A stretch of 47,341 nucleotides of DNA from Acidobacteriota bacterium (lineage in GTDB: Bacteria; Acidobacteriota; Thermoanaerobaculia; Thermoanaerobaculales; Sulfomarinibacteraceae). The notes below the pieces were generated by a model, which made no database searches, was not told the origin of the DNA, and worked only from the letters and a program-made list of their open reading frames with translations. The stretch covers positions 1-47,341 of the forward strand of contig JAADFK010000064.1 in assembly GCA_013152925.1 (NCBI GenBank). Direction: 5' to 3'. Numbering within the stretch: position 1 is the first letter of the stretch; each line of letters begins with the position of its first letter. Both the position numbers and the translations under genes were made by a program. Below are positions 5,185 to 18,276 of this stretch, one piece after another.

Positions 5185-5610
5185 TTACTCCGCCGCCGGC
5201 GCGGTCTCCCAGAGGATGGTTGGAGCCACCTGGGCGTCGCTGAACAGGGCGGGGTCGGTGGACAGCGCGGGGGCGTCCTCCACGGTGACCCAGGCGTGGC
5301 CCTCGCGGGTTTTCCCGGCGAGCAGTCCCAGGTGGAAGCGCGGGGCGAGCCCGCAACGGGACCAGAGGTCCATCAGCAGGAGGGAGCGCTTGAGGCAGGA
5401 GCGGAGGCAGCGGGGCGGCAGCCAGGGTAGAATGCGGTCCACCAGCTCCCTGAGCGCCACCGGATCGCGCAGCGGGGGCGGCAGGAGCCGAACGTCCGCC
5501 AACTGCTCCACCGCCCGGTCCAGCGGCAGGGTCGCGAAGCAGCGTGAGGCGCGGTACGAGGCGCTGAGGAGGGCCGGCAGCAGGAACGGCCAGGAGACCC
5601 GCACGTCCAT
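5185..5610 (-). CDS. Lasso-peptide-B2-like transglutaminase-fold protein
   Basis: The 141-residue product matches the Transglut_core3 / lasso peptide biosynthesis B2 pattern: RSCLKRSLLLMDLWSRCGLAPRFHLGL followed by GHAWVTVED. The presumed catalytic Cys is C72 and the His is H105, spaced as in McjB-type leader proteases; the following D112 could be the third residue. In lasso pathways this protein cleaves the leader peptide with help from an RRE protein. Here it is the last gene of a four-gene set whose reading frames overlap (TGATG with the radical SAM gene). No asparagine-synthetase-like lasso cyclase is nearby, so its substrate is unknown. Family assignment is from motif recognition. Confidence 0.8.
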   Translation of the reverse strand: MDVRVSWPFLLPALLSASYRASRCFATLPLDRAVEQLADVRLLPPPLRDPVALRELVDRILPWLPPRCLRSCLKRSLLLMDLWSRCGLAPRFHLGLLAGKTREGHAWVTVEDAPALSTDPALFSDAQVAPTILWETAPAAE

Positions 5611-6641
5611 CAGGTGCCTCGAAGGCGCCGATGCTCGATGGCCTCTGCGAGCTTGCAAGCGCTCCGTGAGGGCCCCAGCAGGTCTCCATCCTCGAGCAAG
5701 GCCAGGGCGTGGCAGCGGCCGCAGTAGGTCAGCTTGCTGCACGTGGAGCACCCCTTGAGATCGCGCACCGTGATGCTGCGGAGGCTCTGGAGCCACGGCG
5801 AGCCGTCCCAGATTTCCCGGAAGCTCCGCTCGTTAAGGTTCCCGGCAGCACCGGGGAGCACGGTGCAGGCGCGCACCTCGCCCGAGGCCGAGATGGCGGC
5901 GTAACGCACGCCGGCGGCACAGAGGGGGCCTTCGCGGAGGATCTCGGCGCAGTCGTCTTCGGGTGGGTGACAGCCCGTGGCCGGGCCGTCGACGAGAGCC
6001 GTAAGCTCTTCACCGGGAAGCCGAAGCTGAAGCGGGCCGAGGGTACCGTCCTTGGAGGGCAGGATCGACGTGTACACCGTGACGCCGACGCCAAGGTGGC
6101 CGGCCATGGCCGTGACGGTGGCCGGTGCGCCGCGGTTGAGGCTGGTGACGGGAACGGTCAGCTCCACGTCCACCCCGTGCCGTACGAGGAGGCGGACGCG
6201 GTCGAGGACGCGGTCGAAAGAGCCGGGCCGGCCGGTCACGCGATCGAAGGTCTCCGGGTCGCCGGCGTGGAAGCTGACACGGACCTGGAGTCTCAGCTCG
6301 GCCATCAGGGCGGCGGCGGCTCCGTCGATCAGGGCGCCGTTGGTCAGGAGAAGGACGTGGAACCCGAGCTCCCGGGCGCGGCGGGCGATCTCCGCCCAGT
6401 CGTCGCGAAGCAACGGCTCACCGCCCGTCAGGGCCAGGAAGAGCGTGCCCATGGAGGTCAGCTCGTCCAGGAGCTCGAGGACCCGCTCCGTGGACAGTCC
6501 GTCCGGAGCATCGAAGTCTGGAATGTAACAGTGGGCGCAGCGGAAGTTGCAGCGGTTGGTCAGCTCCAGGGAAACATCCAGCGGGATGTGCTCCCGGGCG
6601 GCCCGCAGGACCAGCTCCGGAAAGGCGCCAGGACGGCTCAT
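5610..6641 (-). CDS. Radical SAM/SPASM peptide- or protein-modifying enzyme
   Basis: The 343-residue product carries the radical SAM motif C31-x3-C35-x2-C38 (TNRCNFRCAHCY), GGEP (73-76), and a C-terminal SPASM-type Cys set: C241, C259, C298, C301, C307, C310, C329. SPASM enzymes usually modify ribosomal peptides or proteins, for example by thioether or C-C bonds. The ATG at 6641 overlaps the kinase stop as ATGA. Its place between the HprK-like kinase and the B2-like protein suggests it modifies a peptide recognised by the PqqD domain. The exact reaction cannot be read from the sequence. Confidence 0.88.
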   Translation of the reverse strand: MSRPGAFPELVLRAAREHIPLDVSLELTNRCNFRCAHCYIPDFDAPDGLSTERVLELLDELTSMGTLFLALTGGEPLLRDDWAEIARRARELGFHVLLLTNGALIDGAAAALMAELRLQVRVSFHAGDPETFDRVTGRPGSFDRVLDRVRLLVRHGVDVELTVPVTSLNRGAPATVTAMAGHLGVGVTVYTSILPSKDGTLGPLQLRLPGEELTALVDGPATGCHPPEDDCAEILREGPLCAAGVRYAAISASGEVRACTVLPGAAGNLNERSFREIWDGSPWLQSLRSITVRDLKGCSTCSKLTYCGRCHALALLEDGDLLGPSRSACKLAEAIEHRRLRGT

Positions 6642-7396
6642 GCGACCGGCTTCCTGATGAGATCCCAGACGAGGGGGTCCCTGGCGAAGCTCAGGCGCCA
6701 GACCGGAACCTCCTGGACAAGCCGGGTCAACGTTTCGAAGACCTGGCCCATGGCGTCCAGGTGTTCGGTGGGCCAGCAGACGTGGCGCCGCAGCTCCCGG
6801 AGGGCCCCGGCAGCCGGGATCCTGGTCCGGAGGTGTTCCGGGGCATGCTCGAGAACGAAGACGCCCGCAAGGGGCGCCGAGCCGGGCCGGGCGGCCCAGT
6901 AGGGCAGCGAGACGCCGTGGAACCCGTCCCCAGTTGGACGGACGAGGGCCAGCTCGTCGCACAGCGCGCGTTCGGGGAGCAGCTGGGCCAGAGTGCTCTT
7001 GCCGGCTCCGGATCGGCCACAACAGAGGAAGGTCCGGCCCTCGTCGGCCAGCAAGGCGCCGTGAGCAACGAGGGACGGCGCGACACGCTCGGGAACCAGC
7101 GTGGACAGGAGGGCGTCAAGATGCTCCCAGCGGGCGGAGCCGTGCAAGAAGAATGCGGTCCCCGATGGGCTCGAGGTGACGGGAGGGCCGTCGATCCCCG
7201 GGCGATGTTCCACGAGAACGGCGGGCGGCGCTGTGGTCAGGAACGCTCCGAATCGCTCGTACGCCCGGTCACTCCAGCGGGAGTCCGGCGTCCTCAGCTC
7301 GACGACGGCCCCGCCGAGATCGATACAAAACGAACGTATCACCGGCCTGGCGGGGCCGGGTGGAACCCGGCTCGACGAGGACGGTGCCGGTATCAA
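6638..7396 (-). CDS. HPr-kinase-related P-loop kinase of a PqqD-type cassette
   Basis: The protein has a Walker A P-loop GRSGAGKST (127-135 counting from the TTG start), preceded by HGALLADEGRTFLCC and followed by ALCDELALVRP, a layout typical of HprK-related proteins in PqqD/lasso-type clusters rather than of true HPr kinase. It is 252 residues from TTG 7396, which overlaps the PqqD-gene stop (TTGA). GTG 7342 would give 234 residues and also fits; neither start has a good Shine-Dalgarno sequence, so coupling is likely. In known lasso clusters such kinases phosphorylate the C-terminal Ser of the peptide; that role here is inference. Confidence 0.8.
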   Translation of the reverse strand: MIPAPSSSSRVPPGPARPVIRSFCIDLGGAVVELRTPDSRWSDRAYERFGAFLTTAPPAVLVEHRPGIDGPPVTSSPSGTAFFLHGSARWEHLDALLSTLVPERVAPSLVAHGALLADEGRTFLCCGRSGAGKSTLAQLLPERALCDELALVRPTGDGFHGVSLPYWAARPGSAPLAGVFVLEHAPEHLRTRIPAAGALRELRRHVCWPTEHLDAMGQVFETLTRLVQEVPVWRLSFARDPLVWDLIRKPVA

Positions 7397-7803
7397 GAGT
7401 TGAACGGGTTCTGGTCGCAGATCTGGCTGACAGCCGGGTACTTGGCACAGGCTCCGGCGAAGCGGCGGATCTCGTCCCGCCAGACGATCCGGGGGGCGTG
7501 TGGCACCTCCGCGCCAGGGTCCGGGGCCTCGTCGTGCTGGAGGGGTGGCTCCGCAACGATCAGGCCTTCGGCCGCCAGGTCGGCCAGGAAGGCCCGGACT
7601 GTGGCCCGGACGAGCTCCTCGGTACCCACCTCGGCCGGAACGGCCGATTCCAGCTCCTCGAGCGTCGCTCCACCCTCGAGGGCGGCCCAGAGCCGGCCTC
7701 CGGCCGCGTTCAGCCCGAACATCATCTTGCGGCCCAGGTGGATGAGGATGGTCTCGCCGCCCACCTCCCTCCAGGCCAGCTCCGGATTGCGTTGCACCCT
7801 CAT
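7393..7803 (-). CDS. PqqD-family (RRE) protein with a two-cysteine C-terminal tail
   Basis: Residues 1-85 match the PqqD/RIPP recognition element fold (RRE): MRVQRNPELAWREVGGETIL, then LGRKMMFGLNAAGGRLWAAL, ending in a winged-helix-like part to GLIVAEPP. A Pro/Asp-rich linker (86-105) leads to a 31-residue tail (106-136) with an acidic-basic amphipathic stretch (IVWRDEIRRFAG) and then CAKYPAVSQICDQNPFNS, with C119, C129 and a C-terminal Ser136. PqqD proteins are normally ~90 residues, so the tail is an extension. ATG 7803 has GGAGGGAG upstream. It is the first gene of the cassette. The tail may be a fused RiPP precursor; this is my inference. Confidence 0.82.
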   Translation of the reverse strand: MRVQRNPELAWREVGGETILIHLGRKMMFGLNAAGGRLWAALEGGATLEELESAVPAEVGTEELVRATVRAFLADLAAEGLIVAEPPLQHDEAPDPGAEVPHAPRIVWRDEIRRFAGACAKYPAVSQICDQNPFNS

Positions 7804-7906: not shown

Positions 7907-8476
7907 TCACTGCCGGATATCGAAGGCCGTCGCCCCTGGGCAGGGTTGCTTGGCTCCGTCCATGTAGACTTCCACGCGCCACCGGCCGTAGAGCGAGTTG
8001 GTGACGATGCTCGATCCCGCCACGGGGAAGGAAACCTCCACCGAGGCGTACCGGTTCCCGTCCACGGTCACGTCGTAGGGCGCGTGGATCTTCACGGGAT
8101 ACGGGTAGCCGGGCAACCGGCGGCTCCCCATGGGCGTATTGCCCTTCCCCGGGGCGATGGGCACGTCCAGCCTGCGGTACAGGAAGCCGTGGGGCGTGTA
8201 CACCTTGAGCGTCACGACGTGCTCGTCACCGGGTGTGGCATCGAACAACACGTGGAAGACGATGTCGGTGACCTTGGCCGCCGAGAAGCTGCTCTTCGCT
8301 CTCAGGGAATCGGCGGACAGGCTCGTTGCCGGTCCGAGGACCACACGGGCGCAAAGAGCGGTGGGGGGCTGGGTGCCCCCGCCGGCGGGCGGTCCCACCT
8401 GGGCGAGGGCGCTGCCCCCGGCCACTGTCAGCGCCAGGCCGGCCGTGATGGCGATGCGTTGCATCTGTCGTTTCAT
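7907..8476 (-). CDS. Small exported protein, unknown function
   Basis: The 189-residue product has a Sec signal peptide (about 1-25, cleavage after ALA). The mature protein starts QVGPPAGGGTQPP, almost the same as the mature start of the 1694-aa protein encoded just upstream. The rest looks like an Ig-like beta sandwich (FHVLFDATPGDEHVVTLKVY, YDVTVDGNRYASVEVSFPV, YGRWRVEVYMDG), with two Cys in the mature part. It starts 9 nt after the stop of the giant gene with GTAGGAGGACACC before the ATG, so the two are probably cotranscribed. I do not recognise a named family. Confidence 0.75.
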   Translation of the reverse strand: MKRQMQRIAITAGLALTVAGGSALAQVGPPAGGGTQPPTALCARVVLGPATSLSADSLRAKSSFSAAKVTDIVFHVLFDATPGDEHVVTLKVYTPHGFLYRRLDVPIAPGKGNTPMGSRRLPGYPYPVKIHAPYDVTVDGNRYASVEVSFPVAGSSIVTNSLYGRWRVEVYMDGAKQPCPGATAFDIRQ

Positions 8477-8485
8477 GGTGTCCTC

Positions 8486-11400
8486 CTACTGCAATGGGAG
8501 CGCGATGCCGTAGACGGCGCCGGACTCCGAGCCCACGTAGGCCATGTTGTTGATGACGTCCATGGCGGGGCTGCCGATGGCGGCGGCGCCGTCGCCGAGG
8601 ACGACCGAGGTGTCGATGCTGCCGGTGGCGGCGTTGAGCTGGTAGAGGCTGCCGTTGGTGGAGCCGATGTACAGCGCCGTGCCGCCCACGGGAACGAGTG
8701 GGATCGAGGGGCCGGCCACACCGCCCTGCTGCCAGGTCTGGGACGCCGAGCTCCCGTTGTCCGTCAGCGCCCACACGGTGTTGGTGGTCGAGAAGTAGAG
8801 CTTGCGCGGCGTCGAAACGGTGTACTCCGGCGTCACGTAGCCCTTGACGGGCCCGTCGGTGGTGGCGTAGTGCCAGATCTCCGAGCCGTCGGCCGGGTCG
8901 ATGGCGTAGACGATGCCCGAGTTGTTGCCCACGTAGATCCGGCCGTTCAGGAGCACGGGGGAGCCGTCGACGTCGCCGTAGGGCTTCGACCACACCTTGG
9001 TCAGCGAGGTGCCGTTGAAGGAGAGGCACCACAGGGTGTCGGTCGAGCCGCCGGAGCGCTCACGGGAGGCGAAGTAGATCCGGTTGGTGGCGTAGTCGAC
9101 CGTCGCGCTGGACGAGATGATGCCGATGCCGTTCGCGCCGCCCCCGTTGTTGAAGGAGGTGATGACGGTCCCGTCGGCCGGGTTGAGCATGTACATGAGG
9201 TTATCCGCGGTGGCATCTCGAGAGCCGATGAAGAGCAGGTTGTACGCACCGCCGAAGTCGGTGAAGATTCCCGAGGGAGAGGCGAGCAGGACGCTGCCGA
9301 GCGCCGCGCTCTGCCACAGCGTGGCGCCCGTCTCGGCGTTGACGGCATAGGCGTGGCCGTCCTCCGAGCCCAGGAAGACCACCTGGCTGGCGCCGGAGAC
9401 CGCCGTGGTGGGTACCACCGGCGGCCGCGCCTGCGCCGGGCCGTTCATCCCGGCAGGGGCCCAGGAGAAGCTCCCCACGCGTGGCCAATCGCCGCCTGTG
9501 CTCGTCGGGTTCATGCCGTGGAGCATGCGATCGTTGGACACCGCCCAGGTGCCGCCGGTTCCGATGGCGCCGGGCCGCACCCCCGTGGGTGCCAGGGCCG
9601 TGGCCGCCGTGTTGTAGGCCCACTTGGTCTGCGCCGTGGTGTCGAAGGGCCGGGCCATGACATCCTGGGAGGAGGAGAAGACCCCGCTGCCGTCGTCCAC
9701 GAAGGCCGTGTAGTAGTACGTCGTGCCGTTGGTCAGGCCCGTGTCCGTGTAGGTGTCGTAAGCACCGGCGGTCCCCGTCTGCGTCACGATGGGCGTGCAG
9801 CCCACCGGATCGAGGAAGCCGCGGCAGATCTTCGTCGAGCCGTAGCTCCCCGCCGAGGGGTTGACCCACTCGAGCTTGACTTGGCCCGAAGTCGAGCGCG
9901 CCGTGAACGACTGCACCGGATCGGGCGTGGAGGTGCAAGTGCCGCCACTCTGGACATCGGTGATTTGGACATCGTCGACATACCAGTTCCCGGCGCCGAC
10001 ACTGCTGTCGCAACCCATGCGCCAACGGACGATCACGCTTTGACCGGCGTAGCCGCTCAGGTCGACCACCGTCTGTACCCACGTGGTTTGAGTCCCGGAC
10101 CAATTCGGCCGGTCACCCAGCGGGTTGCCATAGCTTGTCGAAATGTTGGTGTGGTCGTAGCCTCCGGCACTTGCGGAGCCGCCCAGATCGCTCCAGGTGG
10201 CGCCGCCGTCGGTGGAAATCTCGAGCACTGCCGCGTCGTAGGCAAGGCCTGACGTCCAGGAAGAATCCTCGAGATCCCATTGGTGCCAAAAGGAAAGCTG
10301 GCTGGTGGAGGTAACCGTCTTCGCGGGAGCTTGCAGCGACTTGTCGGTCACGCTGCCAACATCCACCGCCGTGAAGGAGTTTGTTCCTCCGGCGGTATGG
10401 TCGACGGTCGTGTCCACGGCCCAGTCGTTGGTGCCCTGAGCGGCATAGTCACTCCAACCTGCGTTCTCGGCATCCACGATGGTCGTGTAGGACTCCACAT
10501 CGTCCAGCCACGTCGCGATTGTCAACCCGGCAGAGCCCGACTGCTCCACGGTGTTCGTCTCCTCGAGACCGCCGTTGCAGAGGCCGCCGTGGCCGGTGGA
10601 GTTGTCCTCGGCGCGGACCACGTAGTAGTAGGTGGTGCCGCCGGTGACCGTGGTGTCCTCGTAGAAGTCGTCGGTGACGCAGCTGGCCAGGAGGCTCGTC
10701 GAGCTGGGTGTGAAGCCGGAGGTCGTCGAGCGGTAGACGTTGTAGACCACGGAGCTGCCGCAGTTCGGGGTCGCCGCGGACCAGTCGAGGCGGAGCCCGC
10801 AGCGAGAGCCCGAGAGCGCCGTCACCGAGGTCAGTCCGGAGAAAGTCGGGGGGCTGCCCACCATGTCCCAGCCCGACAGGCTGGCCCCGCCGTCGCTGGC
10901 ACAGGAGTAGCCGTTGACGGCGCGGATCGAGTAGCTGTAGCTCGTTCCGTTGGTGCCAGTGGTGTCCGTGGCGGAGGTGGAGGACTCAGATATCCCCGTG
11001 AGGATTACGGCTCCGTCGCGCCACACCTCGAAGCTCCGCGTCCCGGAGCCGCCGTCGTTCCAGCCGGCCGGGAGATCCCAGGTCAGCACCACGCCGGTGT
11101 CGTCGCAGGCGTCGCGATCCGTGGCCGTCTGGATCCCGGCGAAGCTGAAGCTGTGGTTGGCATCGGCGCCGGAGCCGGCCGTGGACCAGCCGCTGGACTG
11201 CCCGCACGAGTTGTTGGCCTTCACCTGGTAGGTGTGCGTGGCCGAGTCCCCGGGGCTGTCGCTGTAACTGGTGCCGGCGACGCCGGTGGCGATGACCGTG
11301 CTGTCCCGCATCAGGTCGTAGCTCGTGGCGTTGGCCACGGCGGACCAGGAGATGGTCAACCCCGTGAGCGCGCAGGCCGAGTTGTCCGTCACCGCGGGCG

Positions 11401-13570
11401 CAGCCGGCGTAGCCGGCGCCGTCGCCGTTTGGTCGGAGCCCGAAGTGGCGGCGGACCAGGCGCCCGTGCAGGAAGCGTTCCGCGCCCGCACCTGGTAGGT
11501 GTGACTGTTGAAATCGCCCGGGGAGTAGGTGTAGGGGCTCGTCACGTTGGCGATGGTGGTGGTGCCGTCCACGAGGAGGTCGTAGGCCGTGGCGCCCGTG
11601 ACGCCGGTCCACGTGATGTCCACGCCGCTGAGGGCGCAGGAGTCCTTGTCGCTCACCGCCGGCGCGCCCGGCGTGGCCGGCGTGTTGTCCGCGTCGGTGA
11701 AGCTCTGGGAGGCGCTGTCGGTGTAACAGGTGCTATCCACGGCCCGGATGACATAGCTGTGAGAGGCGGTGTCGCCCGGGTTGTAGCTCGAGCCCGAGGT
11801 AAAACCGCTGACGGCCAGCGCCGTGTCCACATAGAGATCGTGGCTGGTGGCGCCGCTGCCCGCCGTGTAGGTGATCGTCACCCCGCTCTGCGCGCAGGCG
11901 TCGTCGTCCGTGATCGAGTCGATGGTTGGCTGGCCCGGGTCGGTACAGGTGAAGCACGAGGGATACTTGAAAGAGGCCACGCGCGTGTGCCAGTCGAACG
12001 ACCCCGAGGTGACGTAGTACTCCTGTGTGTACCAGAAGGTGCAATCGTCGGAGGGGTCGATGCTCATGGAGGAATAGTCACCCCACCGGCTGTTGCCATT
12101 GTGGTAGCCGCTTCCGGTGACGATGACCGACTCGGCCTGGGGGAGGGTTCCCACGGGATCGGAGACCAGCCTTCCGGCGTACCAGATCGAAGGGTACATG
12201 GAAGAGCTCGAGGCGCTGTAGCCCACGGCCATGTTCCCCATGTGGTCCATGGCGATGGATCCCATCCACCTGGAGGTACTGTCGGGCTCGTAGGTTCCCG
12301 ACTGGTACACGGTTGGCGTACCGTTGGGATCTCGAAGCTCGTACCAGCGCACGGCGCTCGAGGCGCTGGAGCCGCTGACGGAGTGGTTGACCACCAGCGA
12401 CTCGTACGTACCGAAGTTGCGGTAGGCCAGCCGGTACATCAAGCGGTCCGCCAGCGAGTCCAGCTGGGCCGTGGTGCCCTGCTGCGGGATGCAGGTTCCG
12501 CCTCCGCAGGCCTCCGAGAAGCTCGCAACGCTGATGGTCGTCGGTCCGTTGAAGGAGGAGTTGGACGGGGTCGTCCAGTCCACGTGGAACTTCCAAAGGA
12601 GGAGACTGTTCGTCCCGAAGGCGAGAACGTAATTCGGGGAGCCGGAGGGAGGTAGTGTCGATCCGTCCAGATCGGAGGGGAGGAGGCCGCCGTAGGCGGA
12701 GTAGGGCCCGAAGCACTGCTGGGTTGCGGAGCCACCGGTCAGCATGGTTGCCCGGTCGAAGACGCAAACTTCCCCGCCGGCCCAACTCGATCCATTGGCA
12801 AACATGTTGTACGTGATGTAGTACCCGTCGGGCCAGACGGCCATCTTTGGGTAGTCGTTGAAATTGGTGCCGTAGGAATAGGCGTAGCGGTACCAGGAGC
12901 CGGTCGGATCGGAAGTCTGAGAAACGGCGACGCATTCGTAATACGGCGATGAAGAGACTGCAAACTGCGTCACCACCCAGCGGTTGGCCAGCTGATCGAA
13001 CTGGACGATGGGATCGCCGCTGTTGTCCGTCTCGCAGCTGCCTCCGAAACCGGTCCAGAGGGTGTTGCCATTGGCGGGGCCGTACACCACGGTGCCGGTG
13101 GTTTTGTCGAAGATGGTGAACATGGTGTTGAGCCACTGGAAGTAATAGTTGAGCCCCACGTCACCGTTCGTATCCGGCGGCTCACCGCCGATTGTGAAGC
13201 CGCTGAGACCGGAGCCGCCTCCTTCGAAGTTCATGATTGTGGCTGGCATCGCCAGGGTCCCCTGCCACGTCTGGTCCACGTGCGGGCCGGAGCGTCCCAC
13301 GGGACCGCCGGCCGGGGACCGGTTGATCCAGGATGGCAGCTCGTGCTCGGGGGGCAGGTACTTCCCGGGTGATGGCGGGATCGGTTCGATCTCGCGCAGC
13401 GGCGGCGAGACGTCGAAATGGACCGGGTAGCTCACGGTGACGTGCCCGCTCCCGTCCGAAACCGGTGGCGTCGTCCCTCCGCCACCGGGAGGTCCTGTCT
13501 GAGCCGCTGCCGGCAACGCCAGGGCCAATGTTAGCAGTGCTGCGAGCGCCGGAATGAACCCTCGTTTCAT
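8486..13570 (-). CDS. Giant secreted protein: N-terminal propeller-like domain, Cys-paired FN3-like modules, jelly roll and PQQ-type propeller (1694 aa)
   Basis: A signal peptide (about 1-23) is followed by QTGPPGGGGTTPP. An N-terminal domain (about 60-470, with WPDGYYITYNMF and SIDPSDDCTFWYTQEY) resembles a sialidase/BNR-like propeller. Next come at least four ~88-residue fibronectin-III-like modules, each opening with a D-x-x-x-C-A/D motif (DDDACAQSG, DKDSCALSG, DNSACALTG, DRDACDDTG) and carrying paired Cys; then further FN3 modules, a jelly-roll segment (DVESYTTIVDAENAGWSDY...WYVDDVQIT) and a C-terminal PQQ-like propeller (GRIYVGNNSGIVYAIDPADG). ATG 13570 is set by GAAGGAGGGGGAG. It is a paralogue of the gene at 13879-18276. 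Extracellular adhesion or scaffold function is inferred. Confidence 0.85.
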   Translation of the reverse strand: MKRGFIPALAALLTLALALPAAAQTGPPGGGGTTPPVSDGSGHVTVSYPVHFDVSPPLREIEPIPPSPGKYLPPEHELPSWINRSPAGGPVGRSGPHVDQTWQGTLAMPATIMNFEGGGSGLSGFTIGGEPPDTNGDVGLNYYFQWLNTMFTIFDKTTGTVVYGPANGNTLWTGFGGSCETDNSGDPIVQFDQLANRWVVTQFAVSSSPYYECVAVSQTSDPTGSWYRYAYSYGTNFNDYPKMAVWPDGYYITYNMFANGSSWAGGEVCVFDRATMLTGGSATQQCFGPYSAYGGLLPSDLDGSTLPPSGSPNYVLAFGTNSLLLWKFHVDWTTPSNSSFNGPTTISVASFSEACGGGTCIPQQGTTAQLDSLADRLMYRLAYRNFGTYESLVVNHSVSGSSASSAVRWYELRDPNGTPTVYQSGTYEPDSTSRWMGSIAMDHMGNMAVGYSASSSSMYPSIWYAGRLVSDPVGTLPQAESVIVTGSGYHNGNSRWGDYSSMSIDPSDDCTFWYTQEYYVTSGSFDWHTRVASFKYPSCFTCTDPGQPTIDSITDDDACAQSGVTITYTAGSGATSHDLYVDTALAVSGFTSGSSYNPGDTASHSYVIRAVDSTCYTDSASQSFTDADNTPATPGAPAVSDKDSCALSGVDITWTGVTGATAYDLLVDGTTTIANVTSPYTYSPGDFNSHTYQVRARNASCTGAWSAATSGSDQTATAPATPAAPAVTDNSACALTGLTISWSAVANATSYDLMRDSTVIATGVAGTSYSDSPGDSATHTYQVKANNSCGQSSGWSTAGSGADANHSFSFAGIQTATDRDACDDTGVVLTWDLPAGWNDGGSGTRSFEVWRDGAVILTGISESSTSATDTTGTNGTSYSYSIRAVNGYSCASDGGASLSGWDMVGSPPTFSGLTSVTALSGSRCGLRLDWSAATPNCGSSVVYNVYRSTTSGFTPSSTSLLASCVTDDFYEDTTVTGGTTYYYVVRAEDNSTGHGGLCNGGLEETNTVEQSGSAGLTIATWLDDVESYTTIVDAENAGWSDYAAQGTNDWAVDTTVDHTAGGTNSFTAVDVGSVTDKSLQAPAKTVTSTSQLSFWHQWDLEDSSWTSGLAYDAAVLEISTDGGATWSDLGGSASAGGYDHTNISTSYGNPLGDRPNWSGTQTTWVQTVVDLSGYAGQSVIVRWRMGCDSSVGAGNWYVDDVQITDVQSGGTCTSTPDPVQSFTARSTSGQVKLEWVNPSAGSYGSTKICRGFLDPVGCTPIVTQTGTAGAYDTYTDTGLTNGTTYYYTAFVDDGSGVFSSSQDVMARPFDTTAQTKWAYNTAATALAPTGVRPGAIGTGGTWAVSNDRMLHGMNPTSTGGDWPRVGSFSWAPAGMNGPAQARPPVVPTTAVSGASQVVFLGSEDGHAYAVNAETGATLWQSAALGSVLLASPSGIFTDFGGAYNLLFIGSRDATADNLMYMLNPADGTVITSFNNGGGANGIGIISSSATVDYATNRIYFASRERSGGSTDTLWCLSFNGTSLTKVWSKPYGDVDGSPVLLNGRIYVGNNSGIVYAIDPADGSEIWHYATTDGPVKGYVTPEYTVSTPRKLYFSTTNTVWALTDNGSSASQTWQQGGVAGPSIPLVPVGGTALYIGSTNGSLYQLNAATGSIDTSVVLGDGAAAIGSPAMDVINNMAYVGSESGAVYGIALPLQ

Positions 13571-13765
13571 CTCCCCCTCCTTCGACACGATGTGGGGGAC
13601 ACGGATGGGGCGGGGTCGAGAAAAGCGGGCGGCACATCCCGCACGAAAACGCATGCGTAGACACGCGCCGTTCGGCTGAACGCTGTCGGTATCCCCTCGA
13701 TCCTCAATTGACATGCCCCCTGGACCCGTTTCCGGTCCCTCATCCAGTGGGATTTCGTTGGGGGC

Positions 13766-13774
13766 ATGATAGCA
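13766..13774 (-). promoter_or_regulatory. Possible extended -10 promoter of the 1694-aa gene
   Basis: On the minus strand TGCTATCAT (TG-N-TATCAT) occurs about 195 nt before the start codon. It has no convincing -35 box. A degenerate GG-N10-GC arrangement overlaps it (minus strand, 13772-13785) but the -24 element is poor, so I do not call sigma-54 here. Confidence 0.3.
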
Positions 13775-13834
13775 CATTGTGCCCCGTTGAAAAGGTCAGA
13801 GAAGCCGTTGGTTAGCTCCATCCCAGGAGCAGGC

Positions 13835-13878: not shown

Positions 13879-16800
13879 CTATTGCAGCGGCAGGGCGACG
13901 CCGTAGACGGCGCCGGACTCGGAACCGACGTAGGCCATGTTGTTGACGACGTCCATGGCGGGGCTGCCGATGGTGGCCGAGCCGTCGCCGAGGGTTACCG
14001 AGGTGTCGACGCCGCCGGTGGCGGCGTCCAGCTGGTAGAGCCGGCCGTCGCTGGAGCCCACGTAGAGCGCGCTGCCGCCGAAGGGTGCCAGGGGGATGGA
14101 GGGGGCCGGGATGGCGGTGGTGCTCCAGGTCAGGCTGGCCGAGCTGCCATCGTCTGTCAGGGCCCACACGGTGTTGGTGGTCGAGAAGTACAGCTTGCGC
14201 GGTGTGGAGGTGGTGTACTGGGGCCAGATGAAGCCCTTGACGGCGCCGTCGCCCGTGGCGTGGTCCCAGATCTCGGCGCCGTTGGCAGGGTCGACGGCAT
14301 AGACGACGCCGGCGTTGTTGCCCACGTACAGGCGTCCACTGAGGAGCACGGGCGCACCGTCGATGTCGCCATAGGGCTTCGACCACACCTTGGTGAACCC
14401 GCCGGCCGTGAACTGAAGGCACCACAGGGTGTCCTGGGAACCGCCGGCCCTGGAGCGGCTGGCGAAGAAGATCCGGTTGGTGGCGTAATCCACGGTGGCG
14501 CTGGAGCTGATGATTCCCATGCCGCCCGCGCCGCCGCCGTTGTCGAAACCGGCGATGATGTGGCCGTCGGTCGGGTCGAGCAGGTACATGAGGTTGTCGA
14601 GACCTGCATCGCGGGAGCCGACGAAGAGCAGGTCGTCGGCGCCGCCGAAGTCCGTGAAGATCCCGGCGGGCGAAGCCAGGAGAATGCTTCCCAAGGCCGG
14701 GCTCTGCCAGAGGAGCTGGCCGGTGTGGGCATCGGCGGCGTAGGTGTGGCCGTCCTCGGAGCCCAGGAAGGTCACCAGGGAGTGCCCCGGGATCACCGAT
14801 GTTGGGACGACGGGCGGCCGGGCCTGGGCCGGCCCGTTCATGGCCAGGGGCGTCCAGGAGAAGCTCCCGCTGCGGGGCCAGTCGCCGCCGGTTGAGGCCG
14901 GGTTCATGGCGTGGAGCACGCGGTCATTGGAGACGGCCCAGGTGCCGCCGGTGCCGATGGCGCCCGGCATGACGCCGGTGGGTGCCAGGGACGTGGCGCC
15001 GGAGCTGTAGGCCCACAGGATCTTCCCCGAGGTGTCGAGGGGCCGGGCGGTGAGGTGACGGCCGGTGGAGCGGTTGCCGGCGCTGTCCTCGACGAAAGCC
15101 GTGTAGTAATAGGCAGTTCCATTGGCGAGACCGGAATCCGTCGAGGCGTCATAGGTGTTCAGGGCTCCGGCCCAGCTGAGGATGGGCGTGCAGGAGGCGG
15201 CGTCGGGATAGGTGGTCGTGCTCCGGCAGATCTTGGTGGCGCCGTAGGGACCGCTGGAGGGGTTGAGCCACTCGAGCTTGACCTGGCCCGAGGTGGCCCG
15301 CGCCGTGAAGTACTGGACGTCCTCGGGCGTGCCGCCGGAGGCTCCGCCGCAGGGGCCTGGAACCTCGGCGGTCACCTGGACGTCGTCGATGAACCAGCCG
15401 TCCCGGGTGACGGACCCGTCGGTGTACTCGACGAACGCGATGTGGAGTGTGGAGCCGGCGCAGCCTTCGGCTGCTCCGGCGGCCCGGCAGGCCGCATCGA
15501 GGTCCACCACCGTGTTGACGAAGCCGCTCTGAGCGCCGCTCCACCACTGCTCGGCTCCCGCCGGGTTGTTGTAGCCGTTGGCCAGGAAGACGCCGGGATC
15601 CAGGTAGGTGTAGCTTCCCCCGCCCAGGTCCAGTCGAAGGTAGGCGCCGTCGTAGCCCGACTCGAGCTGCCAGCGATGCCAGAAGCTGAGCCGTACGTTG
15701 GTGGCGCCGGCGGGAACGGTGATCGGCGGCGGTCCGGCAAAGGCATGCTTGTTGCTGCCGTAGTTCCTCGTGCAGCTGGTGCCGCCGGCGCGAAAGATCC
15801 TGGAGCCGCTGTGAGCGGTGCAGGACATGACGCCCCGCCAGTCGTTGGCGTCGCCGGAGTTGAAGACACCCGTGCTCCAGCCAGCCATGTCGCCTTCGGC
15901 GTATGACTCGAAGTCCTCGGAGTACAGCACGGAGGAGATCGGCGGCCCGGCCGCCTGGGCCGAGGCGATCGCCTGGTTGGGATCCTCCTGGCCGTTGGAC
16001 TGGTCCAGCGCCCGGACGATGTAGTGATAGGTAGTGCCACTGACCAGGCCGGCGTGGTCGGTGTACGTGGCACCCGTCAGGCCGGCGGCCAGCCGGTTGG
16101 ACAGGGAGGGCGTGAAGTAGGGGTCCGTGGAGCGGTAGACGGCGTAGGTGACCGGGCCGCCGCACTGTGGGGAGGCGGCGCTCCAGCTCAGCTGGATGCC
16201 GCAGCTGGAGGAGGCCAGTGAGGAGGCCGAGGCGATGCCGGCGAAGATGGGTGGCAGGTCGCAGGTGCCCGGGGGCGTGGCGGAGACCTCGTTGGAGTAG
16301 CCGGAATCGCAGGCGCCGCCGAAAAAGGCGGTGACGACGTAGTAGGAGGCGATGTCCCCGGGCGCTGTGGCGTCCAGGTAGCCGGTTGTCCCGGCCGGAG
16401 TGGTGGCCAGGCGCACGTAAGGCCCGCCGGCCTTGCCGCCACGGTACACGCCGTAGCCGCTGGCGCCGCTGACGGCGTTCCACGAGAGAGAGATCCCGTT
16501 GTTGCCGCCAACCGAGGCAGTGAGGCCGGTGGGAGCAACACCGGCGTTGAACTTGAACGAGGCGACCCAGGTCTTCCAGCCGGCCGGGCTCGTGGTGTCC
16601 AGGTACTCGCTGGTGTACCAGAAGGTGCAGTCGTCCACCGGGTCGACGCTCATGGTGGAGTAGTCGCCCCAGCGGGCGGAGGTGCTGGTCTGGGAACCGG
16701 CTCCCGCCACCACGGTGGCCTCGCCCTGCGCGAGGGAGCCCGGGGGATCGGAGACCAGGCGGCCCGCCCAGCGGATGGTGGGATAGGTGGCGCCGCTGGC

Positions 16801-18276
16801 GGTGGTGAAGCCGACCGCCAGATCCCCGGCGGCGTCGAGCGCGGCCGAGGGGCTCCAGCGGTCGTCGGCGTCCGGAGCGTACGATCCTGCCTGCGCCACC
16901 GCCCAGCCCCCACCCGCGTTCTGAAGCTCGTACCAGCGGACGCCGGCATGATCGGAGCCGTTGACGTCCACCGCGTGCGTGACCACGAGGGTCGGGGTGC
17001 CTCCGAGGGAGCGGTACTGGAGCCGGTACATCAACCGGCTGGCCAGAGCATCGAGGCCCTGGGCCGTTCCCGGCTGGGGGATACAGTTCCGGTTGTAGCC
17101 GCAGAGGTTGGAGTCGAAAGCATAGCCGGCGGCCGCCAGGTCGATGGTTGTGGGGCCGGTGAATGAGCCGGATCCCGTGCTCCAGTCCACGGACAGGTCG
17201 AAGAGCAGCAGCTCATCGCTGTGGCCTTCACCCCACGCATCATCGTAGAAGGTCAGGAAGTGGTTGGGCTCACCGGCTGCGGGCGCCGGACCGTCGAGGT
17301 CGGAGGGCAACAGCGCCCACGCCCAGTCATTGGTGGCGGCGTCGGCATAGCCGTAGAGCATACGGGCGCTGGCATCGCCGGCCAGCATCCGGGAGCGCTC
17401 GAAGACGGCGAACTGAGCACCGACGAAGCTCGACCCGCTGAACATGTTGGCCGACATGTAGTAGCCGTCCGGCCAGACTCCGTATTTCGGCGCGTCGGGG
17501 AAGTATCCCACCCCGGCGTCGGCCAGGTAGTCGTAAAGGTACCAGCCGCTGGTGACGGGGTCGGCGCTGCGCGAAACGGCGATGCAGACGTGGTTCGTGA
17601 AGGTCAGCTGGGCGAGGAACCAGCGCCGTGCCAGGTGATCGTAGAGCACGATGGGATCACCGTTATTGCTGACGGCGCAGTCGCCGCCCAACGGCGCCCA
17701 GACGGCGTTACCGTCCACCGGGCCGCCGATGGCGCTGGCTCCCGTGGCCTTGTCGAAGATGTCGATCTGGAGGTTGACCCACTGGACGTAATACCGCTCT
17801 CCAACCGCCCCCTGGGGATCCGGAGGCAGCACGCTGGCGGCGTTTCCGTTGGCCGGGAAACCGGCGGCGGGGGCCGGCATGTTGGGCCGGGGGGTGCGGG
17901 ACGGCCTCTCGAGGGCCGGGTCCTCGAATCGCTCGGGAGCCTTCGCGCGCTGGAGTCTCCAGGGGATCTCGGCGTTTGTCTCGTTGATCTCGTGCGGCTC
18001 ACCCTTGGCGCTTGCGTGCCGGGTGGCCCGGTACGGGCCGAGGTCCCGCTTGGCGAGGGCCGGCGCGGTCACGGTGCGCACCGGCCTGGCGGCGTGCAGC
18101 GGCAGCTTGACAGCGGCACGCTGCGGGCCGGAGCCGGCCAGCACGCTGCGTGCAGTCATCAGGGCGATGACGGCTGCGATGACGATCCACAGCTGCCACT
18201 CACCCCGGCTGAGGCTGGAACGGTCGTTGGGTTTCTCGTGGCTTATGCTACAGAGGCGCTCTCTCGACCTTGTCAT
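13879..18276 (-). CDS. Giant secreted protein, paralogue with FN3, jelly-roll and PQQ-type propeller domains (1465 aa)
   Basis: A long N-terminal segment with a hydrophobic stretch (about 30-47, IVIAAVIALM, possible cleavage after SVLA) indicates export. Domains in order: a propeller-like N-terminal domain (YYVQWVNLQIDIFDKATG; VWPDGYYMSANMF; SVDPVDDCTFWYTSEY), two FN3-like modules, a jelly-roll segment (YSEDFESYAEGDMAGWS ... GWFIDDVQVT), another FN3 and a C-terminal PQQ-like propeller ending SGAVYGVALPLQ. The last ~370 codons are very close to those of the neighbouring 1694-aa gene, so the pair arose by tandem duplication. It has fewer FN3 modules than its neighbour. ATG 18276 has GGGAGGGAG upstream. 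A sigma-54 promoter precedes it. Confidence 0.85.
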   Translation of the reverse strand: MTRSRERLCSISHEKPNDRSSLSRGEWQLWIVIAAVIALMTARSVLAGSGPQRAAVKLPLHAARPVRTVTAPALAKRDLGPYRATRHASAKGEPHEINETNAEIPWRLQRAKAPERFEDPALERPSRTPRPNMPAPAAGFPANGNAASVLPPDPQGAVGERYYVQWVNLQIDIFDKATGASAIGGPVDGNAVWAPLGGDCAVSNNGDPIVLYDHLARRWFLAQLTFTNHVCIAVSRSADPVTSGWYLYDYLADAGVGYFPDAPKYGVWPDGYYMSANMFSGSSFVGAQFAVFERSRMLAGDASARMLYGYADAATNDWAWALLPSDLDGPAPAAGEPNHFLTFYDDAWGEGHSDELLLFDLSVDWSTGSGSFTGPTTIDLAAAGYAFDSNLCGYNRNCIPQPGTAQGLDALASRLMYRLQYRSLGGTPTLVVTHAVDVNGSDHAGVRWYELQNAGGGWAVAQAGSYAPDADDRWSPSAALDAAGDLAVGFTTASGATYPTIRWAGRLVSDPPGSLAQGEATVVAGAGSQTSTSARWGDYSTMSVDPVDDCTFWYTSEYLDTTSPAGWKTWVASFKFNAGVAPTGLTASVGGNNGISLSWNAVSGASGYGVYRGGKAGGPYVRLATTPAGTTGYLDATAPGDIASYYVVTAFFGGACDSGYSNEVSATPPGTCDLPPIFAGIASASSLASSSCGIQLSWSAASPQCGGPVTYAVYRSTDPYFTPSLSNRLAAGLTGATYTDHAGLVSGTTYHYIVRALDQSNGQEDPNQAIASAQAAGPPISSVLYSEDFESYAEGDMAGWSTGVFNSGDANDWRGVMSCTAHSGSRIFRAGGTSCTRNYGSNKHAFAGPPPITVPAGATNVRLSFWHRWQLESGYDGAYLRLDLGGGSYTYLDPGVFLANGYNNPAGAEQWWSGAQSGFVNTVVDLDAACRAAGAAEGCAGSTLHIAFVEYTDGSVTRDGWFIDDVQVTAEVPGPCGGASGGTPEDVQYFTARATSGQVKLEWLNPSSGPYGATKICRSTTTYPDAASCTPILSWAGALNTYDASTDSGLANGTAYYYTAFVEDSAGNRSTGRHLTARPLDTSGKILWAYSSGATSLAPTGVMPGAIGTGGTWAVSNDRVLHAMNPASTGGDWPRSGSFSWTPLAMNGPAQARPPVVPTSVIPGHSLVTFLGSEDGHTYAADAHTGQLLWQSPALGSILLASPAGIFTDFGGADDLLFVGSRDAGLDNLMYLLDPTDGHIIAGFDNGGGAGGMGIISSSATVDYATNRIFFASRSRAGGSQDTLWCLQFTAGGFTKVWSKPYGDIDGAPVLLSGRLYVGNNAGVVYAVDPANGAEIWDHATGDGAVKGFIWPQYTTSTPRKLYFSTTNTVWALTDDGSSASLTWSTTAIPAPSIPLAPFGGSALYVGSSDGRLYQLDAATGGVDTSVTLGDGSATIGSPAMDVVNNMAYVGSESGAVYGVALPLQ

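Follow-up and report, generated by a model that had tools for sequence, protein, structure and literature searches.

The window analysed here, a 47,341-nucleotide stretch of an Acidobacteriota genome (contig JAADFK010000064.1, family Sulfomarinibacteraceae), carries a cassette of four minus-strand genes. They encode a 136-aa PqqD-type protein (positions 7393 to 7803; PF05402, E = 3e-12), an HprK-like P-loop kinase (6638 to 7396), a radical SAM/SPASM enzyme (5610 to 6641), and a B2-like cysteine protein, the candidate leader peptidase (5185 to 5610). The PqqD-type gene starts with ATG, with GGAGGG six bases upstream. The kinase gene starts with TTG and overlaps the PqqD-type gene by 4 nt (TTGA), an overlap found in identical form in several relatives; the radical SAM gene overlaps the kinase gene by 4 nt (ATGA), and the overlap of the B2 gene is 1 nt (TGATG). 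The four-gene order recurs in relatives, which are Acidobacteriota MAGs (Thermoanaerobaculia; Thermoanaerobaculales/Holophagae), and its retention there excludes a chance arrangement.

The preliminary description of this DNA had reported four minus-strand genes overlapping by 1 to 4 nt, and gene calls and Pfam families agree with it; a check for loss of the gene order in close relatives found the order kept. It took the genes for a RiPP-like cassette in which a radical SAM enzyme joins the toolkit of lasso systems (RRE, HprK-like kinase, and B2) and a cyclase is lacking, and gene content bears this out as well. Its further proposal that radical SAM chemistry replaces the role of the cyclase stands as a statement of gene content only. 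The description did not mention the C-terminal tail of the PqqD-type protein, the probable precursor and the key feature here, or the two genes for secreted proteins upstream.

The kinase matched ScmC and HprK_rel_A below threshold only in family searches. Its residues H112, G127, G130, G132, K133, S134, D147, and E148 are conserved in 21 to 22 of 22 relatives and form the pattern H-GxxGxGKS-DE, which follows the published lasso kinase pattern H-GxxGxGKS-DD (PMC10368454) with Glu replacing the last Asp. The radical SAM enzyme contains Radical_SAM (PF04055, E = 1.7e-27) and SPASM (PF13186, E = 1e-7) domains and matches no NCBIfam equivalog above cut-off; the CxxxCxxC motif and SPASM cysteines 241, 259, 298, 301, 307, and 310 are invariant (21/21). 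SkfB is its top solved-structure match by sequence, at low similarity. The B2-like protein belongs to Transglut_core3 (PF13471, E = 9.4e-11, above cut-off), the family of lasso B2 peptidases, and falls just below the cut-off of 33 bits for NCBIfam lasso_biosyn_B2 (NF033537; 30.9 bits, E = 3e-7). Its C72 and H105 are invariant (28/28). The SynChlorMet, GeoRSP, and HPr-rel-A models are among the best subthreshold NCBIfam matches, with the PqqD, kinase, and radical SAM proteins far below the cut-offs; the corresponding cassettes share with this one a PqqD-type protein together with a radical SAM/SPASM enzyme, an HprK-related kinase, or both.

Two genes for secreted proteins immediately precede the cassette on its strand. 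The first encodes a small protein of 189 aa with a predicted Ig-like sandwich (7907 to 8476), for which Foldseek returned generic Ig-like sandwiches only, and the second (8486 to 13777) a giant protein in which Pfam and NCBIfam models identify MAM-like domains as well as propeller domains of the PQQ/BamB type. A related gene at 13879 to 18276, also for a giant secreted protein, lies in tandem with the second and encodes the same two kinds of domain.

The C-terminal tail of the PqqD-type protein

The PqqD-type protein exceeds the length of an RRE and ends in a conserved tail (residues 104 to 136) with the pattern P-R-I-x-W-R-E-E...A-G-x-C...C..P..S. Residues 1 to 83 (7555 to 7803) form the RRE domain; NCBIfam PqqD models, of 74 to 102 positions, match up to residue 83 only and leave the tail outside. 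A variable linker follows (residues 84 to 103; 7495 to 7554), then a leader-like segment, PRIVWRDEIRRFAGA (residues 104 to 118; 7450 to 7494), and a core-like segment, CAKYPAVSQICDQNPFNS (residues 119 to 136; 7396 to 7449), which holds a CX9C arrangement and a C-terminal Ser.

Among aligned relatives, mean pairwise identity is 0.37 in the RRE, 0.165 in the linker, 0.51 in the leader-like segment, and 0.385 in the core-like segment. The leader-like segment is rich in E, and its P104 and W108 are invariant in 19 rows. In the core-like segment, C129 occurs in 19/19 rows and C119 in 16/19, and P133 is found in each of the 17 rows in which that column is occupied. Among the three closest sequences, the tail has a dN/dS of about 0.03 to 0.065, versus 0.15 to 0.22 for the RRE plus linker; purifying selection acts more strongly on the tail than on the RRE.

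AlphaFold2, run with an input alignment of 19 rows, modeled the 136-aa protein with a mean pLDDT of 83.5. The RRE is confident (about 88 to 96), the linker has low confidence, and the tail contains a confident predicted strand at residues 106 to 111 (pLDDT of 93 for the block 101 to 110), followed by a predicted disordered core end. The RRE model has the winged-helix RRE fold; its closest solved structures are 5v1v and 5v1u (VIA Z 12.2), complexes of the lasso protein TbiB1 and its leader peptide, and it also matches PqqD structures.

The same tail was found in 21 loci, referred to here as fused, from several families of the class (class-wide search) and from two genomes elsewhere in the phylum (L153 and L154; phylum-wide search). 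Within the family of the window, the cassette is present in about half of 20 genomes searched, a patchy distribution. When 84,980 species were scanned with alignment A1 (alignment A2 being too divergent), the only relatives with the strict motif lay on six Acidobacteriota contigs; this search was of low sensitivity. In three fused loci (L081, L082, and L083) the tail retains a single Cys and the core differs (NQISPxQ...NPxC in a pair of them), and the single Cys limits any two-cysteine chemistry there. Together with the lack of an adjacent B2 gene in L081 and L083, these tails suggest a distinct product. The L081 counterpart of the giant secreted protein has a subtilase domain.

Free-standing relatives and the fused clade

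In 16 loci, related radical SAM/kinase cassettes contain a separate small gene for a leader and core beside a tail-less PqqD gene. A search with a profile of the tails identified one such open reading frame (L038, E = 8e-4), and directed scans added L039 to L041, L044, L086, L088, L110, L112, L115, L117, L121, L155, L159, L160, and L162. In L110 the 189-aa gene and the PqqD gene flank the free open reading frame. In L155 and L160 its flanking genes are those for the 189-aa protein and the kinase, which is the place of the fused gene in the window. When the fused tails were compared profile to profile with each of two sets of free peptides, the E values were 3.7e-9 and 4.6e-9; the free peptides match no Pfam or NCBIfam model. 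By its homology to these precursor-like genes, the fused tail would itself provide the leader and core of a ribosomal precursor.

A motif refined after some of the peptides were known was used to scan 859 kb. There were 34 matches, 33 of them adjoining a radical SAM or kinase gene; reversing the sequence left 1 match, and ten shuffled versions together gave 11 (about 1 expected). The scan detected no separate precursor in the fused loci, and no separate precursor with the leader motif was found in the window. The two arrangements are mutually exclusive: wherever the PqqD gene of a free locus is in view, it lacks such a tail. A C-terminal Ser occurs in 14/21 fused and 13/16 free peptides (27/37 overall). 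One contig (L038:450-5049) bears two PqqD/kinase pairs, a B2 gene, a free precursor, and one radical SAM gene, possibly as two neighboring cassettes.

Fused and free peptides differ in the leader. The motif YxxPx[L/V/I] binds discrete RREs in lasso and LPP (linear polyphosphorylated peptide) leaders (PMC10368454, PMC12710340, PMC13381572). An aromatic YxxP/WxxP anchor is present in 16/16 free peptides, all as Y/WxxPx[IV], and in 1/21 fused ones; the fused forms keep Px[IVL] in 20/21 and lack the aromatic anchor in 20/21. Such a loss would be expected if tethering relaxes the need for an anchor, and it may count as one event, because the fused loci form one clade.

In the radical SAM tree, the 21 fused rows form one group (88/97), which adjoins the free-precursor loci L155, L159, and L160 with a joint branch of 100/98. 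The kinase tree agrees, with all fused rows grouped (94). Because both trees fit it, a single fusion event, out of a family with separate precursors, would be the simplest reading of these sequences. A separate clade of radical SAM/PqqD/kinase loci comprises L035 to L037, L124, and L086:14079-16785; no precursor was identified for this clade.

Proposed pathway and alternatives

Considering the gene content, the conservation, selection, and homology of the tail, the single fused clade, and the lack of a cyclase, all of them computed observations, we give a probability of roughly 0.8 that the cassette makes a RiPP whose precursor and recognition element are one fused protein; the figure covers the fused-precursor reading and not the chemistry. 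A small chaperone of this kind ordinarily brings a separate peptide to the modifying enzymes; here residues 1 to 83 would serve as a lasso-type RRE and the tail as leader plus core. The leader strand PRIVWRD would dock in cis on the RRE, probably by pairing with its leader-binding edge, and so present the disordered core to the three enzymes encoded by the overlapping genes. The radical SAM/SPASM enzyme would modify the core. The cysteines are its most likely targets, and the best guess is that a thioether or some other link is formed there. The HprK-like kinase would phosphorylate a core Ser, plausibly the C-terminal one, since 27/37 peptides end in Ser and the earlier-known lasso kinases act on a C-terminal Ser (PMC10368454). 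The B2 peptidase would then free the core, so that each RRE molecule would be used once. The docking face, the bond formed, and the sites of phosphorylation and cleavage are in this account what we infer, as are export and the biological role; no dedicated exporter was noticed. Profile searches did not find B2 adjoining the cassette in the fused lineages L034, L075, L079 to L081, and L083, and release of the core there would have to use something else.

We also lean, less firmly, toward a distinct RiPP class in which RRE, leader, and core would be one polypeptide with a cis-acting leader and a single-use RRE, and in which the kinase, B2, and radical SAM enzyme would yield a cyclase-free, cross-linked phosphopeptide, the whole having arisen a single time out of a family whose precursors are separate genes. 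The combination consists of known kinds of parts and is apparently undescribed as a set; no description of RRE, kinase, B2, and radical SAM genes without a cyclase was found in the open-access literature, nor any report of a natural RRE-precursor fusion.

Unlikely, and yet the best placed of the other readings, is one in which the tail serves the RRE as an extension for regulation or docking and brings in the radical SAM enzyme or the kinase, the precursor being encoded elsewhere or being another protein, for instance one of the secreted neighbors. The higher conservation of the leader-like part than of the core-like part (0.51 versus 0.385) fits such an extension, and so does the frequent co-conservation of the neighbors: the secreted genes adjoin most, but not all, fused cassettes, and the 189-aa gene accompanies most fused and some free ones. 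That gene was not found beside the fused cassettes L075, L077, and L078, however, the motif scan gave no other precursor candidate in the fused loci, and peptides homologous to the tail are separate small genes at the position of a precursor.

The product might instead be a linear phosphopeptide like the LPP RiPPs, with some other substrate for the radical SAM enzyme. LPP clusters are also a cyclase-less offshoot of the lasso toolkit, with an RRE, an HprK-like kinase, and YxxP leaders (PMC13381572). They differ in having a SipW-like peptidase and an NTP transferase, where B2 and a radical SAM enzyme are found here, in their separate precursors, and in their occurrence in Bacillota (PMC13381572). 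Three features make this reading very improbable: LPPs use a signal-peptidase-like protease and not B2, the core cysteines are conserved, and the radical SAM gene, whose start overlaps the kinase gene, is found alongside fused and free precursors alike.

The similarity to phosphorylated lasso peptides (paeninodin, Bsf type) is extensive. They share with the cassette a discrete lasso-type RRE, for which TbiB1 is the best structural match, an HprK-like kinase with the same residue pattern, a B2 peptidase, and a C-terminal Ser, and with the free-standing forms a Y/WxxPxL/I leader. Unlike them, the cassette has no lasso cyclase, a radical SAM/SPASM enzyme in its place, a Cys-containing core, and a precursor fused to the RRE. 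A true lasso-type locus does occur in the same family (L042:6782-10672), with B2, a tail-less PqqD protein, a kinase, and a cyclase that starts with MSG. Used as a query, this cyclase gave no match in the radical SAM-type loci, whether fused (21) or free (16), and it does match lasso-type loci elsewhere. A check for a lasso cyclase paired with the set elsewhere in the genome of the window, a possibility raised by the preliminary description, returned none: the genome has one B2 only, and no lasso cyclase scored above the curated cut-off in any of the 20 family genomes. The genome of the window has four subthreshold Asn-synthetase-like proteins, of which three (L106, L107, and L109) begin with MCG, as in glutamine-dependent Asn synthetases, and the fourth runs off a contig end; we read them as probable ordinary Asn synthetases. 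A lasso locus with a remote cyclase is rejected on the single B2, the 20 genomes, and the 0/37 radical SAM-type loci, and a degenerate or misread lasso locus of any kind, suggested by the lasso-type kinase, B2, and RRE and by the L042 locus, is scarcely credible given also the MCG starts, unlike the MSG of the L042 cyclase, and the conserved active-site residues of the radical SAM enzyme, kinase, and B2.

With the fused-precursor reading preferred, two further systems invite comparison. Sactipeptide maturases such as SkfB and StsB share a radical SAM/SPASM enzyme and a Cys-containing substrate, with low similarity; unlike in those systems, the fusion partner of the RRE here is the precursor instead of the enzyme, and a kinase and B2 are present. 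In borosins, the precursor is fused in cis to the modifying N-methyltransferase. The cassette would share with them the fusion in cis of a precursor to a protein of its pathway, the partner here being the recognition element.

A second fusion type and wider meaning

The genome of the window also encodes a second, unrelated PqqD fusion (L089:6871-7347, contig C207), a type that recurs in L114, L127, and L129, with tails such as YAPPELLVYHDMADLLALDPPVPGLMPEAWDYP. It adjoins an HprK-like kinase gene in L089, L114, and L129 and is without a radical SAM gene or Cys; the L089 copy has a YxxPxL motif in its tail and is set among polysaccharide-type genes. By sequence, this is perhaps another RRE-precursor fusion, LPP-like in kind, and its presence in the same genome means that the fusion principle may be wider.

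RiPP mining tools seek a small precursor gene near an RRE, and in fused clusters there would be none to find; because the precursor sits inside the RRE gene, mining may be missing an entire group of clusters. The fused and free forms together provide a natural experiment on leader recognition, including why a YxxP anchor is kept, and the RRE-precursor fusion offers a tethered design for peptide engineering. Besides LPP, the cyclase-less relatives of lasso systems would now include an Acidobacteriota branch with radical SAM chemistry, in which a precursor carried as its chaperone's own tail would be an apparently undescribed way to ribosomal peptide products.
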